In this document: piece by piece, positions 5,889 through 38,352 of the stretch
How the letters are laid out: each line of letters starts with the position of its first letter
Numbering within the stretch: the stretch's first letter is position 1
Source of the DNA: Nocardioides sp. BP30
Lineage (GTDB): Bacteria > Actinomycetota > Actinomycetes > Propionibacteriales > Nocardioidaceae
Direction: 5' to 3'
NCBI RefSeq assembly: GCF_029873215.1
Contig: NZ_CP123620.1
Span: 2,232,001-2,296,000, forward strand
Length of the DNA stretch: 64,000 nt
Notes under the pieces: generated by a model
What the model saw: only the letters and a program-made list of their open reading frames with translations
The model's database searches: none
Told to the model about the DNA's origin: nothing
Made by a program: the position numbers and the translations under genes

Positions 5889-8204
5889 ATGAGTGAGGAA
5901 CGCGCTGTCGCCACCCCGCGCGAGCGGGCGGTGCGCGTGCGCGAGGGCGGGTCCTCGGCGCCGTCGGGCCGAAGCATGCGGGCACGGCTGGCGCGGATGG
6001 GGCAGCGCAACAACGGCGCCAATCCGGTGCTCGAGCCGCTGTTCCGCGCGGTCCGTGCCAACCACCCCAAGGCGGACCTGGCGCTCCTCGAGCGCGCCTA
6101 CGTGACGGCCGAGCGGCTGCACGAGGGGCAGATGCGCAAGAGCGGTGACCCCTACATCACCCATCCGCTCGCTGTCACGACCATCCTCGCCGAGCTCGGC
6201 ATGACCGAGCCGACCCTGGTCGCGGCCCTGCTGCACGACACCGTCGAGGACACGCCGTACGCGCTCGAGGAGCTGCGTCGGGACTTCGGTGACGAGGTAG
6301 CGGTGATGGTCGACGGCGTCACCAAACTGGACAAGGTCCAGTACGGCGAGAACGCCCAGGCCGAGACCATCCGCAAGATGATCGTGGCGATGTCGAAGGA
6401 CATCCGCGTCCTGGTGATCAAGCTGGCCGACCGGCTGCACAACATGCGCACGCTGCGCTACGTGCCGCAGAAGTCGCAGGAGCGGTCGGCCCGGGAGACC
6501 CTCGACATCTACGCGCCGCTGGCCCACCGGCTCGGCATGAACACGATCAAGTGGGAGCTGGAGGACCTCGCGTTCGCCACCCTGCACCCCAAGATCTACG
6601 ACGAGATCGTGCGGCTGGTGGCCGAGCGTGCCCCCTCGCGCGACCAGTTCCTGGCCCAGGTGATCAGCCAGGTGGAGAACGACGTACGCGAGGCCAAGAT
6701 CAAGGCGACGGTCACCGGCCGACCGAAGCACTACTACTCGATCTACCAGAAGATGATCGTCGGAGGTAAGGACTTCTCCGACATCTACGACCTGGTCGGC
6801 ATCCGCATCCTGGTGGCCGAGGATCGCGACTGCTACAGCGTCCTGGGCGTGCTGCACTCGCGCTGGAACCCGGTGCTGGGGCGGTTCAAGGACTACGTCG
6901 CGATGCCGAAGTTCAACATGTACCAGTCGCTGCACACCACCGTCATCGGCCCGCAGGGCAAGCCGGTGGAGATGCAGATCCGCACCTTCGGCATGCACCG
7001 AAGGGCGGAGTACGGCGTCGCGGCGCACTGGAAGTACAAGGAGGACGGCCGGGCCGGCGTCGACACCGACAAGCGTGGCGACGTCGACGACATGAGCTGG
7101 GTCAAGCAGCTGCTCGACTGGCAGTCCGAGGTCGAGGACCCGGGTGAGTTCCTGGAGTCGCTGCGCTTCGAGATGAACCGCGCCGAGGTCTACGTCTTCA
7201 CGCCGCGCGGTGACGTGATCGCGCTGCCGGCCGGATCCACGCCGGTGGACTTCGCCTACGCGGTGCACACCGAGGTCGGTCACCGGACCATCGGGGCTAG
7301 GGTCAACGGCCGGCTGGTGCCCTTGGAGTCCACGCTCGAGAACGGCGACGTGGTCGAGATGTTCACCTCCAAGGCGCCCACCGCAGGGCCCTCGCGGGAC
7401 TGGCTCTCGTTCGTCAAGTCGAACCGGGCCCGCTCGAAGATCCGCGCCTGGTTCACCAAGGAGCGCCGCGAGGAGGCCATCGAGAAGGGCCAGGACGCGA
7501 TCGCCAAGCTGATGCGCAAGGAGGGGCTGCCGCTCAAGCGGTTGATGTCCCACGAGTCGCTGACGCTCGCGGCCCGACACTTCAACATCGCCGACGTCAG
7601 TGCCCTCTACGCCGCGGTGGGGGAGGGCAACCTCTCCGCGCAGGCGGTGGTGCGCCGGGTCGTCGACGAGCACGGCGGTGACCAGGGCGCGGCCGAGGAC
7701 CTCGCCGAGGCCGTCACCATCACCCGCCCGCGCCGTTCGAAGATCGCCACCGGCGGCGACGCCGGCGTCATCGTCAAGGGCAGCGCGGATGTCTGGATCA
7801 AGCTGGCCCGGTGCTGCACGCCGGTGCCCCCCGACCCCATCCTGGGCTTCGTGACCAAGGGCGGCGGGGTCTCGGTGCACCGGCTGGACTGCACCAACGC
7901 GGCCGAGCTGAAGAACCAGCCCGAGCGGCTCATCGACGTGGAATGGGCGCCGACCTCGTCCTCGACGTTCCTGGTCAACATCCAGGTGGAGGCCTTGGAC
8001 CGTTCCCGGCTGCTCTCGGACATCACGATGGCGCTCTCGGACGCGCACGTGAACATCCTGTCCGCCCAGCTGAGCACCTCGCGCGACAGGGTCGCCAAGT
8101 CGCGGTTCTCCTTCGAGATGGCCGACGCCAAGCACCTCGACACGGTGATCAAGGCGGTGCGCAACGTACCGGGTGTGTTCGACGCGTACCGCGTGACCTC
8201 CTGA
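5889..8204 (+). CDS. relA: Bifunctional (p)ppGpp synthetase/hydrolase Rel
   Basis: A 771-residue long RSH enzyme that makes and degrades the stringent-response alarmone. Domains in order: HD hydrolase with HDTVED (about residues 117-122), synthetase with [13 protein letters not shown] and [13 protein letters not shown] ([16 protein letters not shown]), helical/zinc-finger region, and a C-terminal ACT domain. The basic R-x-K-D motif is the type seen in bifunctional enzymes, and both catalytic domains look intact. The stop codon TGA at 8202-8204 is also the last part of a 22-nt-period repeat array. The gene converges on the DUF559 and DUF349 genes beyond it. Confidence 0.97.
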
Positions 8205-8263
8205 CCGACGAGACGTCACCTTCCGCGGGTCGAGAGGTCACTTCTTGCGGGTCGAGTGGCCGC
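8202..8263 (-). repeat. 22-nt-period array, left inverted copy
   Basis: Read on the minus strand this holds two full 22-nt units and a third truncated one: 8242-8263 (begins GCGGCCACTCGACCCGC), 8220-8241 (GTGACCTCTCGACCCGC) and 8202-8219 (GTGACGTCTCG). The last three bases of the array are the relA stop codon. A closely similar array in inverted orientation lies at 9311-9373, so the two frame the DUF559 gene. Confidence 0.85.
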
Positions 8264-8274
8264 CGAAGACCGTC

Positions 8275-9198
8275 TCACCAGCGCCGGGTCGTGTACGTCG
8301 CGGCAGTCAGGGCGCGACGCAGCTCGCCCAGCCACCGATCGAGCTCGGCGCCGGTGAAGTCGCCGCGCTGCACGACGATGGCCGTCCAGCCATGCTCGCG
8401 CAACCATCGTCGGCGGGCGCGGTCGTGGTCGCGCTGCTCGTCGCTCCTGTCGTGGAACTCGACACCGTCGTACTCGACGTAGACGCGCTGCTGCGGGTAG
8501 GCGAGGTCGAGCCGGAAGGTCGGCACGCCGTCGACCTCGATCCACAGCTGCGGCTCCGGCAGCGGCAGCCCGGCATCGTGGATCGCGAGCAGCGTCCAGG
8601 CCTCGCGCGGGGACTCCAGGCGCAGGTCCACCAGTGGCACCAGCTCGCGCAGCTGGACGACACCGCGACGACGTACGAATCGATCGGCGGCCGTCACCAG
8701 GTCACAGGGTTCGAGGGTGTGTCCCCGAGCCAGCGAGCACAGCGCGGCGAACGCCTCCCGACGCCGCAGGTGGCACCCGAGGTCCAGGGCGGTGCGCAGC
8801 GGGGTGGTGACGCGAAGACCGTCGAGCTCCACGATGTCCTCGGGACGGAGGTCGCGGCTGCGTCCGCGCACGCCGGCCAGCCGGCTGCGGGTGTGGCCGC
8901 GCAGCGCGCACGTCTCGATCGGCGCTCCTTGACCCAGCTCGACGGCCGCGTAGGTGTCGGTGCCGTGCAGCCACGCCGCCGTTCGGTCGACGACGACCTG
9001 CGCCGGCCCGACGACCAGGCGCAGGGCAGCAGCCCGCAGCTCGATCGAGTCGGGCGCCGCAGCGGCGACGTACACGCCGCGGACGACGCGGCGCACCTCT
9101 CCGCGCTCGAGCGCTCGGCGCAGATCGCCCGCCGTCAGCCCCAGCTCGGGCAGGGAGGAGAGGTGGAACGGCTCGTTGGTCGTGGTGGTCTCGGTCAT
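8275..9198 (-). CDS. AbiEi-like/DUF559 putative nuclease-fold protein
   Basis: A 307-residue protein. Residues 10-45 (LTAGDLRRALERGEVRRVVR) resemble the winged-helix N-terminus of AbiEi-type antitoxin-domain proteins. The C-terminal part (about 197-295) is DUF559-like, related to Vsr/PD-(D/E)XK nuclease folds, with D231 in RLDLAYP and E242/D244 in VEYDG as candidate metal ligands. Such genes are common orphans in Nocardioidaceae and their function is unknown. The ATG at 9198 has GGAGGG just upstream; a start inside the flanking repeat at 9318 is possible. No toxin partner is adjacent. It sits alone between inverted repeat arrays, which suggests a mobile or repeat-associated cassette. Confidence 0.75.
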   Translation of the reverse strand: MTETTTTNEPFHLSSLPELGLTAGDLRRALERGEVRRVVRGVYVAAAAPDSIELRAAALRLVVGPAQVVVDRTAAWLHGTDTYAAVELGQGAPIETCALRGHTRSRLAGVRGRSRDLRPEDIVELDGLRVTTPLRTALDLGCHLRRREAFAALCSLARGHTLEPCDLVTAADRFVRRRGVVQLRELVPLVDLRLESPREAWTLLAIHDAGLPLPEPQLWIEVDGVPTFRLDLAYPQQRVYVEYDGVEFHDRSDEQRDHDRARRRWLREHGWTAIVVQRGDFTGAELDRWLGELRRALTAATYTTRRW

Positions 9199-9288
9199 GC
9201 CGCCACCCTCCGGTGCCGGCGACGGCCTGACCACCGCCGATCGGCAGGCTGGGGACGACGCTGCCCGCCGTCGTACCTGTGGATGGAA

Positions 9289-9319
9289 AGTGGCCGCTAC
9301 CGAACCGGTAGCGGCCACT
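9289..9319. repeat. Perfect 13-bp hairpin at the cassette edge
   Basis: Bases 9289-9301 pair perfectly with 9307-9319 around the 5-nt loop GAACC; the arms are AGTGGCCGCTACC and its reverse complement. The right arm runs into the first repeat unit at 9311. There is no T-tract on either strand, so it is not a standard intrinsic terminator. It lies upstream of the DUF559 gene, in its 5' region. Confidence 0.8.
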
Positions 9320-9373
9320 CGATCCGCAGGAACTGACCTCTCGACCCGCGAAAACTGACGTCTCGGCGGGTCA
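9311..9373 (+). repeat. 22-nt-period array, right inverted copy
   Basis: Units at 9311-9332 (GCGGCCACTCGATCCGC), 9333-9354 (CTGACCTCTCGACCCGC) and a third, truncated one at 9355-9373 (CTGACGTCTCG) match the minus-strand array at 8202-8263 unit by unit. Its last three bases, TCA, are the stop codon of the minus-strand DUF349 gene. The arrays therefore begin exactly at the stop codons on both sides of the DUF559 gene. Confidence 0.85.
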
Positions 9374-10606
9374 GCTGAAGTCGGCCGAGGCCCGCTTCGC
9401 CATCTCCAGGAACTGCTTGCGCGACTCGAGGTTCTCCTCCAGGGAGGCGATCCGCTTGGCGTCCCCGGCGGCTCGGGCCTTGTCCAGATCCGACTCCACC
9501 TTCGCGATCGCGTCGGTGAGCTTGCTGATCATGTCGTCGGCGCGGGCCGACTTCTCCGGGTCGGACTTGCGCCACTGCTCGTCCTCGACGGACTTGATCG
9601 CCTGCTCGACCTTGCGCATCCGGCCCTCGAGGTCGCGGATCCGCTCCCGCGGCACCTTGCCGGCCGCGTCCCAGCGCTCGGCGAGGTCACGGAAGGCCGA
9701 CTTGGCGGCACCGAGGTCACCGGACTCGATCTGCGGCAGCAGGGCCTCGGCCTCGACCAGCAGCTGCTCCTTGACCTCGGCGTTGGCGGCGAACTCCGCG
9801 TCCACGGCGGCGTTGGCCTCGTCGCGGGATCCGAAGAAGAGATCCTGAGCGCCTCGGAAGCGCTTCCACAGCGCGTCGTCGATGTCCTTCGGGGCCGGGC
9901 CGGCTGCCTTCCACTGCCGCATCAGCTCCCGGTAGCGGCCGGCAGTAGCGCCCCAGTCGGTCGATCCGGCCAGCTGCTCGGCCTCGGCGGCGAGCCGCTC
10001 CTTGACCGCCCGCGCACCCTCGCGCTTCTCGTTGAGCTCGGCGAAGTGCGACTTGCGCCGCCGGGTGTAGGCCGTCCGTGCGGTGGAGAAGCGGCGCCAG
10101 AGCGCGTCGTCGCTGGCACGGTCGATGCGGGGGAGCGCCTTCCACTGGTCGAGCAGCTCGCGCAGCCGGTTGGCGCCGTTGCGCCAGTCGTTGCCCTCGG
10201 CGAGTCGCTCGGCCTCGGCGACCACGCGCTCCTTCTCGGTGCGGGCCTCGGCGGACTTCGCGGCGCGCTCGGCCTTCCGGGCCTCGCGCTGGGTCGCGAT
10301 CAGGGGCGTGAGCGCGTCCAGGCGCGCGGCGAGTGCCGCCAGGTCGCCGACGGCGTTGGCGTCGGTCACCTGGGCCCGGACGTTCTTGATCGACTCGGTG
10401 GCCTCTTCGGGGCTGAGCTTGGCGCCGTGAACCCGCTTCTCGAGCAGCTCGACCTCGAAGGCGAGGGCCGCGTAGCGCTCGGTGAAGAAGTGCAGCGCCT
10501 CCTCCGGCGTGCCCTCGGGATACTGCCCGACCGCACGTTCGCCGTCGGCGGTGCGCACGAAGACCGTGCCTTCGTCGTCGACGCGGCCCCACTGCTCGCT
10601 CGTCAC
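9371..10606 (-). CDS. DUF349 domain-containing coiled-coil protein
   Basis: An Ala/Glu/Arg-rich, largely helical 411-residue protein with several repeats of about 70 residues, each with a conserved tryptophan near LREL..QWKAL, ALWRRF or ALWKRF, the hallmark of DUF349. No enzymatic motif is visible and the function is not established; no signal peptide or membrane helix is present. The GTG at 10606 is preceded by AGAAGGA at about 8 nt. A DUF349 gene between relA and hisS is a known actinobacterial arrangement. The stop codon coincides with the end of the right repeat array. Confidence 0.8.
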   Translation of the reverse strand: MTSEQWGRVDDEGTVFVRTADGERAVGQYPEGTPEEALHFFTERYAALAFEVELLEKRVHGAKLSPEEATESIKNVRAQVTDANAVGDLAALAARLDALTPLIATQREARKAERAAKSAEARTEKERVVAEAERLAEGNDWRNGANRLRELLDQWKALPRIDRASDDALWRRFSTARTAYTRRRKSHFAELNEKREGARAVKERLAAEAEQLAGSTDWGATAGRYRELMRQWKAAGPAPKDIDDALWKRFRGAQDLFFGSRDEANAAVDAEFAANAEVKEQLLVEAEALLPQIESGDLGAAKSAFRDLAERWDAAGKVPRERIRDLEGRMRKVEQAIKSVEDEQWRKSDPEKSARADDMISKLTDAIAKVESDLDKARAAGDAKRIASLEENLESRKQFLEMAKRASADFS

Positions 10607-11420: not shown

Positions 11421-12785
11421 ATGACCAAGCCGACGCCGCTCTCCGGCTTCCCCGAGTTCCTGCCAGCGCAGCGTTTCGTGGAGCAGCAGGTGGTCGCCAC
11501 CCTGGCGCAGACCTTCGAGCTGCACGGCTTCGCCAACGTCGAGACGCGTGCGGTCGAGCCGTTGGACCAGTTGCTGCGCAAGGGCGACACCTCCAAGGAG
11601 GTCTACGTCCTCAAGCGGCTCCAGGACGAGGGCGCCGGGGATGCCGGCATGGGCCTGCACTTCGACCTCACGGTGCCGTTCGCGCGCTACGTGCTGGAGA
11701 ACGCCGGCAAGATCGAGTTCCCCTTCCGGCGCTACCAGATCCAGAAGGTGTGGCGCGGCGAGCGGCCGCAGGAGGGCCGGTTCCGGGAGTTCACCCAGGC
11801 CGATATCGACATCGTCGGCAAGGACGTGCTGTCCTTCCACCACGACGTCGAGGTCACCCGGGTCATGCTGGAGGCGCTCGCGCGGCTGTCGGGTGCCGAC
11901 TCGATCGGTCTGCCGGGATTCCGGCTCCAGGTGAACAACCGCAAGCTGATCCAGGGCTTCTACTCCGCGCTCGGCGCCCCCGACGTGGACGAGGTGATGC
12001 GGCTGATCGACAAGCTCGACAAGCTGCCGGTCGCCGAGGTCGGGAAGCTTCTGGTCGCCGAGGCCGGTCTGAGCGACGAGCAGGCGGACCGCTGCCTCGA
12101 GCTGGCCACCATCTCGGCCGGCGACGACTCCTTCGTCGAGCGCGTGCGCGCCCTGGGCGTCAGCGGCGAGCTGCTGGAGGAGGGACTGACCGAGCTGGCC
12201 ACCCTGATCCGCGCCTGCGCGCCGCTCAACACCGACAAGGTGAGCGTGGTAGCCGATCTCTCGATCGCGCGCGGCCTGGACTACTACACCGGCACCGTCT
12301 TCGAGACCCGCCTGGAGGGCTACGAGTCGCTGGGCTCGATCTGCAGCGGCGGCCGTTACGACGCGCTGGCCTCCGACGGGCGTACGACGTACCCCGGCGT
12401 GGGGATCTCCCTGGGCGTGAGCCGCGTGCTCGTGCCGCTGATGCAGCGCGGTCACCTCACCGCGGACCGGCAGGTGCCCTCCGCCGTACTGGTGGCGCTC
12501 AACGACGAGGAGTCGCGGCCGGCCGCGGACGCCGTCGCCACGGCGCTGCGCGCCCGCGGCATCGCCTGCGAGGTGGCCGCGACCGCGGCGAAGTTCGGCA
12601 AGCAGATCCGTTTCGCCGAGCGCCGCGGGATCCCCTACGTCTGGTTCGACACCGCCGAGGGGCACCAGGTCAAGGACATCCGCAGCGGTGACCAGGTGCC
12701 GGCCGACGTACGGACGTGGGAGCCTCCGGTCGAGGACCGGCGTCCGCGGGTGGTGCTGAGCGACCACTCGACCGCCGAGAACTGA
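11421..12785 (+). CDS. hisS: Histidyl-tRNA synthetase
   Basis: A 454-residue class II aminoacyl-tRNA synthetase that charges tRNA-His. Motif 2 is within [22 protein letters not shown], the histidine-specific segment is [13 protein letters not shown], and motif 3 is [10 protein letters not shown]. The C-terminal anticodon-binding domain ends near VEDRRPRV. The last eight codons and the TGA (SDHSTAEN, about 12759-12785) lie inside a 22-nt-period repeat array, so the extreme C-terminus and stop codon appear to derive from the repeat. The ATG is 10 bp after the MBL hydrolase; aspS follows. Confidence 0.96.
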
Positions 12786-12817
12786 CCACTCGACCCGCAA
12801 GAACTGACCACTCAACG
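12760..12817 (+). repeat. 22-nt-period array at the hisS stop codon
   Basis: Units at 12760-12781 (GCGACCACTCGACCGCC), 12782-12803 (CTGACCACTCGACCCGC) and a partial unit at 12804-12817 (CTGACCACTCAACG). The repeat, unit order and truncated third unit match the arrays flanking the DUF559 gene. It begins inside the hisS coding sequence and supplies its TGA stop; the aspS start follows 13 nt after the array. Confidence 0.85.
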
Positions 12818-36834: not shown

Positions 36835-38293
36835 CATGCATCGGTCCATTCCGTCGCGGCGGCTCGTCGAGCTGCTCGGCGTCTTCGAACGCACGCCGGC
36901 CTACGTCGGCCTGGCCGACGCCCTCACGGTCCTGATCGGCGACGGCCGGATCGCCCTCGACGTCCGGCTGCCGAGCGAACGCGATCTCGCCGCCGGGCTC
37001 GGCGTCTCCCGCACCACCGTCACCCGCGCCTACGCGTTGCTCGTCGAGACGGGGTTCGCGGTGGCGACCCGCGGGGCCGGCACGTTCACCCGGGTACCCG
37101 GTGGCCGCTCGCGGGCGCACGACCAGGCCCTCACGCCTTCACGGCACAGCGGGGTGATCGACCTGACCTGTGCGGCGGCCACCGCGCCGCCGGGCATCGC
37201 CGAGGCCTACGCCGCCGCAGCCGCGGAGCTGCCGGCGTACCTGGGCGGCCACGGCTACTTCCCGGTCGGCCTGCCTGCGCTGCAGGAGGCGATCGCCGCG
37301 ACGTACGCCGAACGGGGGCTGCCCACCCGGCCGGACCAGATCATGGTGACCTCCGGTGCGCTGGGCGCGGCTGCCGTCGCCGCACAGGCGCTGGTCGGCA
37401 CCGGCGATCGGGTGCTGGTCGAGACGCCGACCTACCCAAACGCCGCCGAAGCGCTGCGCCGAGCGGGCGGCCGGTTGGTGCCCGTTCCGGTGGACCCCGA
37501 CGGCTGGGACCTGGACGGCACGATCGCCACCGTGCGGCAGTCGCGCCCGCGGGCGGCCTACCTCATGCCAGACTTCCAGAACCCCACCGGTCTGGTGATG
37601 AGCGGCCCGGAGCGCGAACGGCTCGGAGCCGCCCTCACCCGGGCGGGCACGGTCGCCATCGTGGACGAGGCGCACCAGGGGCTCGCCCTCGACGGCCAGG
37701 AGATGCCGCCGCCGCTGGCCCGGTTCGCGCCGGGCGCGGTGACGATCGGAAGCGCGTCCAAGCTCTTCTGGGGCGGTCTGCGGATCGGGTGGCTGCGGGT
37801 TCCCGACGAGGTGACGATGGACCGGCTGGTGGCATCGCGGCTCTCGGTCGACCTCGGCTCTCCGCTGATCGAGCAGTTGGCGATGGTGCGGCTGCTGGCG
37901 GACCCGGGCCCGCTGCGGGCGGCGCAGGTGGACCGCCTGCGCCGGCAGCGGTCCGCGCTGGTGGCGGCGCTGTCCGAGCGGCTCCCGGCCTGGGAGGTCC
38001 GGGTTCCGGCGGGCGGCCTGTGCCTGTGGTGCCGGTTGCCGGTCCCCGCCGCCTCCACCCTGGTCGCCGCCGCGGAGCGGGGCGGGGTAGCGATCGCCGC
38101 CGGGCCGATCTTCGCCGTCGACGGCGGCCTGGAACGTTTCGTCCGCATCCCCTACGCGCGCCCGGAGGCCGAGCTGGTGGCGGCCGTCGAGGTCCTCGCC
38201 GAGGTGTGGGCCGAGGTGAGCAGGAGCCGTACGGTCGAGCGGGCGGCGGGGCGGACGGCACGGCGGGCCTCCGACCGGGTCATCGTGGCGTGA
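36827..38293 (+). CDS. MocR-type (GntR/aminotransferase fusion) regulator, YczR-like
   Basis: A 488-residue chimera. An N-terminal GntR winged helix (about 25-90) contains LPSERDLAAGLGVSRTTVTR. A class I aminotransferase-like domain follows, with MPDFQNPTG, DEAHQG and the PLP-lysine region SASKLFWGGLRIGW. Such proteins use PLP or an adduct as effector; the YczR subgroup is paired with yczE. The start is either the GTG at 36827 or the ATG at 36836, both inside the presumed operator, which suggests autoregulation. The stop lies in a 22-nt-period repeat array, and the C-terminal tail is a basic extension after the conserved fold. Confidence 0.88.
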   Translation: MDCMHRSIPSRRLVELLGVFERTPAYVGLADALTVLIGDGRIALDVRLPSERDLAAGLGVSRTTVTRAYALLVETGFAVATRGAGTFTRVPGGRSRAHDQALTPSRHSGVIDLTCAAATAPPGIAEAYAAAAAELPAYLGGHGYFPVGLPALQEAIAATYAERGLPTRPDQIMVTSGALGAAAVAAQALVGTGDRVLVETPTYPNAAEALRRAGGRLVPVPVDPDGWDLDGTIATVRQSRPRAAYLMPDFQNPTGLVMSGPERERLGAALTRAGTVAIVDEAHQGLALDGQEMPPPLARFAPGAVTIGSASKLFWGGLRIGWLRVPDEVTMDRLVASRLSVDLGSPLIEQLAMVRLLADPGPLRAAQVDRLRRQRSALVAALSERLPAWEVRVPAGGLCLWCRLPVPAASTLVAAAERGGVAIAAGPIFAVDGGLERFVRIPYARPEAELVAAVEVLAEVWAEVSRSRTVERAAGRTARRASDRVIVA

Positions 38294-38352
38294 GCCGGCG
38301 GGGACGGAGGCCCGAGTCGGCGGAGACGCAGGCCCGAGTCGGCGGGCGCGGT
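38287..38352 (+). repeat. Second-type 22-nt-period array at a stop codon
   Basis: Three 22-nt units: 38287-38308 (contains the TGA of the regulator gene), 38309-38330 and 38331-38352. The last two share GGCCCGAGTCGGCGG exactly at their 5' ends, and the first has five mismatches to the second. On the minus strand the core reads GACTCGGGCC, which falls in the same phase as CACTCGACCC of the arrays near relA and hisS. It may be a diverged relative. Confidence 0.65.

Follow-up and report, generated by a model that had tools for sequence, protein, structure and literature searches.

This study concerns a 64,000-nucleotide stretch of the soil-type bacterium Nocardioides sp. BP30 (the window; positions 2,232,001-2,296,000 of a single-contig genome of 4,278,108 bases) and, within it, a block between relA and its convergent neighbour, a DUF349 gene. 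The block holds one gene, predicted to encode an AbiEi-like part joined to a DUF559-type nuclease domain, flanked by two inverted arrays of a 22-nt unit. It is probably one case of a recurring nuclease-repeat arrangement that resembles the REPtrons, the pairs formed by repetitive extragenic palindromic (REP) sequences and a REP-associated tyrosine transposase (RAYT), with an unrelated enzyme. Since a nuclease gene lies between inverted palindromes that also occur as dispersed solo copies, the block fits such a pair. The proposal is built on the framing of related genes by inverted repeats, the genome-specific dispersal of these repeats where it was tested, their placement beside stop codons, the predicted fold of the protein, and the differing units carried by related genes at one and the same place. 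Below, L-numbers denote fetched loci or stretches and G-numbers denote genomes, G000 being the window genome.

An inverted-repeat search recovered both arms of the block at 59 nt, 88% complementary and separated by 1047 nt, and Tandem Repeats Finder (TRF) assigned a 22-nt period to each, in agreement with the matching inverted arrays described in the initial annotation. The left arm (8205-8263, plus strand) carries units at 8214-8234 and 8236-8256, with weight-matrix scores of 27.6 and 33.8, that run away from the relA stop codon (8202-8204). The right arm (9311-9369, minus strand) carries units at 9318-9338 and 9340-9360, scoring 30.6 and 34.0, that run away from the DUF349 stop codon (9371-9373). 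Both arrays had been said to begin at the stop codons of the neighbours; the arms abut these stops but do not contain them. Each arm comprises two full units and one partial, as had been read from the sequence, and the single gene reported between them was recovered as 307 codons on the minus strand (8275-9198). The neighbours are relA/spoT (5889-8204, plus strand; an open reading frame with Pfam matches to RelA_SpoT, HD_4, TGS and ACT_4) and the DUF349 gene (9371-10606, minus strand; Pfam DUF349, 2.1e-55). Over its 22-nt period the unit reads roughly GGTCA-SNNNNN-GCGGGTCGAG-W, with a variable middle stretch (26 copies). With up to 3 mismatches, a 22-nt pattern of the unit matches the window five times, against a mean of 0.00 in 100 shuffles, and four of the five matches lie in the arms or in the neighbours of an array at hisS. 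Clustered regularly interspaced short palindromic repeats (CRISPR) were considered and not supported, the units lying head to tail with no spacers.

The assignment of the protein to AbiEi and DUF559 is supported by PADLOC (AbiEi domain, 8.5e-11) and by its fold, but its Pfam matches fall below the cut-offs: DUF559 scores 18.1 bits (cut-off 20.6), MTES_1575 25.7 (cut-off 38.2), and AbiEi_4 likewise falls short. Some relatives of the protein pass the DUF559 cut-off. An AlphaFold2 model, with a mean predicted local distance difference test score (pLDDT) of 89.8, matches 3r3p, the homing endonuclease I-Bth0305I, and 6y8q, an AbiEi structure; I-Bth0305I is the best structural match of the nuclease domain, at a sequence identity of 9%, and belongs to the EDxHD family. 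By its predicted fold, then, the protein is an AbiEi-like part with an EDxHD/Vsr-like nuclease domain. The residues D231, E242 and D244, proposed at the outset as candidate nuclease residues, are invariant across 13 aligned sequences, the window's included. The protein has no DUF222 match, and no DUF222 place of the genome falls within the block. Given the AbiEi domain, the block could be thought an AbiE-type antitoxin or autoregulator whose arrays are operators of the AbiEi part, in keeping with the PADLOC call, the match to 6y8q and the array 5' of the gene. The same kind of array also stands behind the gene, however, the scattered arrays of the genome lie at stop codons and not at promoters, and the genes directly adjacent, relA and DUF349 by Pfam, include no AbiEii toxin, all of which makes this explanation very improbable.

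For the framing score, the 350 nt preceding a gene were aligned with the reverse-complemented 350 nt that follow it. Fifteen loci were scored: L031, which is that of the window, and L032-L045, 14 relatives picked up by protein similarity. The controls were 137 other genes, taken from the window and from loci L035-L045. Scores of 52 to 123 were obtained in 13 of the 15 loci, while the controls had a median of 24 and a maximum of 34 (Fisher 4.8e-17; 4.9e-16 for the 14 relatives alone). Counted per junction, with the junctions grouped by eye, framing holds in 10 of 11 (Fisher 1.1e-14). At L040 the end of the gene had been misplaced by prediction and the score becomes 69 once corrected, bringing the framed relatives to 13 of 14 as opposed to none of the 137 control genes. 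A relative from Tsukamurella is framed as well (55), and L076 (37) and L327 (35) lie barely above the controls. The first test had seemed to refute the link between DUF559 genes and arrays, having been confined to the window's unit, which occurs near DUF559 relatives only at the orthologous locus; the relatives carry other units. A search for any 22-nt array found inverted arrays on both sides in 7 of 10 non-orthologous loci of the genus and family (L036-L042), with units that differ between loci and are common to the two sides of each. Nocardioides silvaticus (L037), for example, has GTTGATTCCTCCCTCGTGGCGG 3.9 times before the gene and its inverse 3.4 times after it. This search overturned the idea of a terminator coincidence, with DUF559 relatives devoid of arrays.

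The window's unit is dispersed in its own genome. With one mismatch allowed, GGTCASNNNNNGCGGGTCGAG matches 86 places in 60 clusters, against 1 place for a backwards control. Weight-matrix scoring of 55 fetched stretches gave 64 clusters, 55 of them intergenic and 9 in predicted coding sequence; by setting, 34 lie between convergent, 19 between tandem and 2 between divergent genes (gene prediction by a script trained on the window). The arrays are thus common genome-wide, a pattern that had been offered as refuting if no link to DUF559 genes existed, but the link is present. A stop codon lies within 25 nt of 51 of the 55 intergenic clusters (median distance 8 nt over the 53 with a flanking stop), and of the arrays within 25 nt of a stop, 60 of 74 have units that run away from it. 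Both orientations are present in 25 of the 55 intergenic clusters, which are palindromes always ordered plus to minus and never minus to plus; the other 30 are one-sided. At five variable positions of the 25 palindromes, the two arms differ on average by 1.92 within an element and by 2.86 between elements, a contrast reached in none of 20,000 permutations. When 55 stretches of the window genome were compared with 49 array stretches of G049, 24 found a match; for L123 and L150 the match is due in whole or in part to DUF222-HNH paralogues. Elements more degenerate than the search pattern escape this comparison. In some orthologous elements, such as L155/L187 and L117/L173, both arms have changed jointly. 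A viral origin was also considered and not supported: 80 viral-contig stretches match a pattern and none codes a relative.

Some of these features would also suit a different explanation, in which the palindromes are bidirectional terminators or 3'-end hairpins of the host, spread by other means, and the DUF559 genes are passengers that land in convergent junctions. Convergent junctions are in excess among the intergenic clusters: they account for 34 of the 55, compared with 5 of the window's 58 gene pairs (p 2e-9). In addition, four complete solo elements that were folded, two of them from the window genome, form long single-stranded DNA hairpins (z -7 to -13). This explanation is weighed further below, beside the other inserts found at the same junction.

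In the genomes tested, the framing repeat is that of the gene itself and is dispersed there. The window genome contains a DUF559 paralogue, L032, with arms of a second, b-type unit, which matches 197 places against 80 for a backwards control; the control is high, and its matches may fall within the same arrays, which makes the count a weak indication that the unit is dispersed. Inspection of nineteen stretches around b-type arrays in G049 revealed another DUF559 gene there, L327, which shares 78% identity with L032. Together with L038 of N. nematodiphilus, these genes occupy a common junction with homologous flanks, adjoining ctaB (Pfam UbiA in L327) and, on the other side, presumably ctaA. 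Their units differ at this one place: GTTGAGTCGGGCCTGCGTCCGG in L032, GTTGAGTGATGGGTCCGTCCCG in L327 and GCTGACCTGGCCCTCGCGCACC in L038, with one additional b-like unit seen by eye in L327. In a sample of 20 pieces of 20 kb from Nocardioides SLBN-35 (G151, the genome of L036), its own unit was found in 9 copies, which make up two palindromes, against 0 backwards matches, and none of five units from other genomes was present; once 4 mismatches are allowed, signal and control are equal. A protein search also led to two Arthrobacter relatives (identities of 34% and 31%), whose inverted flanks score 50 and 53. In one strain the framing repeat is found at 16 places of one replicon and, in the other strain, at 7 and 6 places in two replicons (own arms counted), and elsewhere in 72,556 plasmid records each repeat has one chance match. 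The period of the first Arthrobacter repeat is 31, not 22. Within 250 kb of its replicon, two solo elements lie between convergent genes by the National Center for Biotechnology Information (NCBI) annotation: one spans from 8 nt past the stop of panC to about 6 nt from that of the ribokinase gene, and the other has an end 3 nt from the agmatine deiminase stop.

Across 215 genomes of the genus, the window's unit matches 86 places in the window genome, 87 in G049, 41 in G111 and 35 in G137, and at most 19 as read in the rest; the backwards controls range from 0 to 10. The relA/DUF349 junctions of G049 and G111 carry relatives of the window's gene, 71% and 67% identical, arms included, so that with the window genome these are the three genomes with this gene type at the junction. 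A relA match was present in 207 genomes of the genus, and junction DNA was obtained for 104 loci, with one label corrected by hand. Three have the window-type DUF559 gene, 13 a second DUF559 family on the opposite strand with framing scores of 66-125, 75 lack DUF559 genes altogether, with a median gap of 194 nt, and 13 could not be assigned. Empty sites had been named as a check, and junctions without a DUF559 gene (these 75) occur in more distant species, but the nearest two relatives found keep the gene; an empty allele carrying the same unit was not found among the fetched junctions. The junction behaves as a hotspot that holds either of two opposite-strand DUF559 families, GIY-YIG genes, other genes, or palindromic arrays alone.

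Such arrays without a DUF559 gene (L079, L256, L230 and L086) bear on a second alternative, in which the solo palindrome is the target of a homing endonuclease, the DUF559 gene is copied into palindromes by break repair, and the spread of the palindromes is a separate matter. The first three of these loci suit homing, as does the structural match of the nuclease domain to a homing endonuclease. The arms of the block look like halves of a palindrome, with an inner hairpin on the side of the right arm (9289-9319; a perfect 14-bp stem and 3-nt loop, from inverted-repeat and DNA-fold analysis). In addition, a 9-bp direct repeat found by eye, AGTGGCCGC at 8255-8263 on the plus strand with a copy at 9289-9297, flanks the insert and may be a target-site duplication like those of a classical transposon or MITE; by eye it is not kept in L035 and L076. 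Homing leaves unaccounted for the tens of genome-specific solo copies and the differing units of related genes at one place, and at L045 and L353 a whole palindrome seems, by eye, to stand on each side. It is a rather improbable account of the arrangement.

The inserts that share the relA/DUF349 junction speak to the passenger explanation. Sixteen junctions without a DUF559 gene have gaps above 450 nt: 8 hold non-nuclease inserts, 3 hold GIY-YIG genes (Pfam GIY-YIG confirmed for the three) and 5 have no predicted gene. The eight non-nuclease inserts, so classed by eye, score 18-26, as the controls do, whereas the DUF559 inserts are framed and the GIY-YIG inserts score 69, 127 and 236. In DUF559 loci, moreover, the arms carry the gene's own unit, which is dispersed in the genomes sampled. 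Host terminators with passenger genes are an unlikely explanation, although one with a real claim. Collagen-like and membrane-type genes were seen by eye among the other inserts.

When the three GIY-YIG proteins were compared with all fetched loci, seven small GIY-YIG loci emerged, three of them among the five gene-less junctions: L241, L225, L232, L218, L057 and L252 at relA/DUF349 junctions, and L340 in G151. All seven Nocardioides loci are framed above 34 (37-236, L252 barely at 37), by palindromic repeats of other sequences; in L057 and L340 the direct-repeat score is even above the inverted one. Outside Nocardioides the picture for GIY-YIG genes is mixed: they matched 60 plasmid records, and of the 8 fetched, all from beyond Actinomycetota, 3 have inverted flanks above 34, namely two Methylobacterium and Sinorhizobium meliloti pSymB; two of these 3 score higher as direct repeats.

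DUF222-HNH genes were tried as partners of the arrays and set aside. Twenty copies from the window genome and G049 were assessed out of 23 matches, with exclusion of three in G049 that are fragments or lie at contig ends. A 22-nt array stands 5' of 18 of the 20 by TRF and of the other two by eye, and inverted flanks on both sides were found in 0 of 20. The multi-copy loci (L261-L284) share a leader of about 250 nt, with the array just 5' of the leader and several unit types; at some arrays the neighbouring gene is divergent. Among 28 DUF222 loci of other genus genomes, 2 have a 22-nt array 5'.

Returning to the proposal of a REPtron-like nuclease-repeat pair, a number of points weigh against it. 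Framing is not unique to DUF559, because 2 of 27 DUF222 loci outside the window genome and G049 have inverted flanks (L304, 89; L307, 217). Split arms of the window's repeat also flank three ordinary genes of the window genome: NUDIX (G000:C1 1585466-1586150), PemK-like (3376290-3376838) and AAA_33 (1307633-1308425). Both observations would also suit terminators with passenger genes. L033 fails the framing test (27), with two c-type units (3 mismatches) before the gene and two better ones after it, and so does the Nonomuraea relative L352 (22-25). At L353 (50/52, inverted/direct), L355 (53/49) and L051 (66/66) direct and inverted scores are nearly equal, so whole elements, not split arms, may lie on both sides. 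G137 has 35 matches to the window's unit, yet it is not among the three genomes with the window's gene type; L083, the DUF559 gene detected in it, is flanked by arms of another type, and none with window-type arms was obtained. The gene keeps one junction in the window genome and its two nearest found relatives, G049 and G111, so that no recent movement is seen; the evidence does not establish recent mobility or the mobile cassette proposed in the initial annotation. Finally, the activity of the nuclease is itself predicted.

With these points taken into account, the following mechanism is proposed for the pair. The AbiEi part would recognise the gene's own repeat, and the DUF559 part would nick or cut it. 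Repair of the break from other copies could then spread and homogenise the repeat, with the gene held between two arms. Solo elements may persist in the vicinity of stop codons, a setting in which they are nearly harmless, and possibly act as bidirectional terminators. Binding, cutting, spread by repair and the terminator role are each deduced from the arrangement and from the predicted fold.

A wider reading, held more tentatively than the proposal for the block, is that palindromic intergenic repeats of actinomycetes belong to systems in which solitary nucleases do the job of a RAYT, with at least two unrelated folds (AbiEi-DUF559 and small GIY-YIG) and with an enzyme-repeat co-evolution rapid enough to leave related genes at one place with differing units. 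Should nucleases of other folds have dispersed repeats of their own, they would offer a candidate answer for REPs without a dedicated transposase, and DUF559/AbiEi and small GIY-YIG genes would gain a function open to testing. Where a gene has stayed in place while its unit changed, natural enzyme-repeat pairs are at hand for recognition tests. The search of full-text literature suggests that the partnership has so far gone unrecognised: no description of a DUF559-repeat pairing was present among the matches listed, in a coverage that leaves out most subscription papers and so leaves novelty unproven.

Elsewhere in the window, a third array of the same repeat family lies at hisS (12767-12810, minus strand), with the hisS stop codon (12783-12785) within its first unit; this unit codes for the C-terminal end of HisS and provides its stop codon. 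Another 22-nt array at 38292-38346, b-type-like by eye, starts at a stop codon and precedes the next gene. The b pattern at 3 mismatches has zero matches within the window, this array included.

Several known systems share features with the block. The N-terminal AbiEi part (PADLOC 8.5e-11; PDB 6y8q) recalls the AbiE type IV toxin-antitoxin systems, from which the block differs in having no adjoining AbiEii partner and an added nuclease domain. The nuclease fold of the model is that of the EDxHD homing endonuclease I-Bth0305I, but the window's gene lies between palindromic arrays, its product is fused to an AbiEi-like part, and the identity is only 9%. REP13E12/DUF222-HNH genes (PMC10589994, as far as its available text goes) resemble the multi-copy nuclease-type genes with 5' 22-nt arrays of the window genome and G049; unlike the window's gene, none of the 20 copies has inverted repeats on both sides, and the block contains no DUF222. 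The CGTC-tagged REPs, one large class of bacterial palindromic repeats, are, in the available part of PMC3733652, palindromes mainly between convergent or unidirectional genes that apparently lack a dedicated transposase. The elements described here share that placement, whereas the CGTC-tagged REPs are predominantly of alphaproteobacteria and that part of the source names no nuclease for them.

The closest comparison is with REP/RAYT pairs. In the available text of PMC8266576, these comprise a mostly single-copy nuclease gene with adjacent palindromes, intergenic dispersal and cognate repeats, and mobility of the gene is without evidence. The analogy, drawn when the block was first described, is largely supported, with a different enzyme, because relatives are framed far beyond controls and the repeat is dispersed within the tested genomes. 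A nuclease gene bordered by inverted palindromic repeats occurs in 14 of 15 loci (L040 corrected), and the repeats are dispersed and mostly intergenic, in 55 of 64 clusters of the window genome as well as in the other genomes tested. The HUH Y1 transposase of RAYTs (PF01797) was sought and gave no match in the window genome, with matches in 5 of 14 control genomes; the enzyme here is modelled as AbiEi plus an EDxHD/Vsr-like domain. The repeats differ too. The tag GTAG is absent from the consensus of 26 unit copies (2 of 28 dropped), CGTCA, which may or may not correspond to the published CGTC tag, occurring in 8 and GGTCA in 18. The repeats are head-to-tail arrays of a unit of about 22 nt with an inverted array and, by eye, a GTYGAG-like hexamer in place of GTAG. 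The block thus resembles a REPtron in its arrangement and departs from it in both enzyme and repeat.

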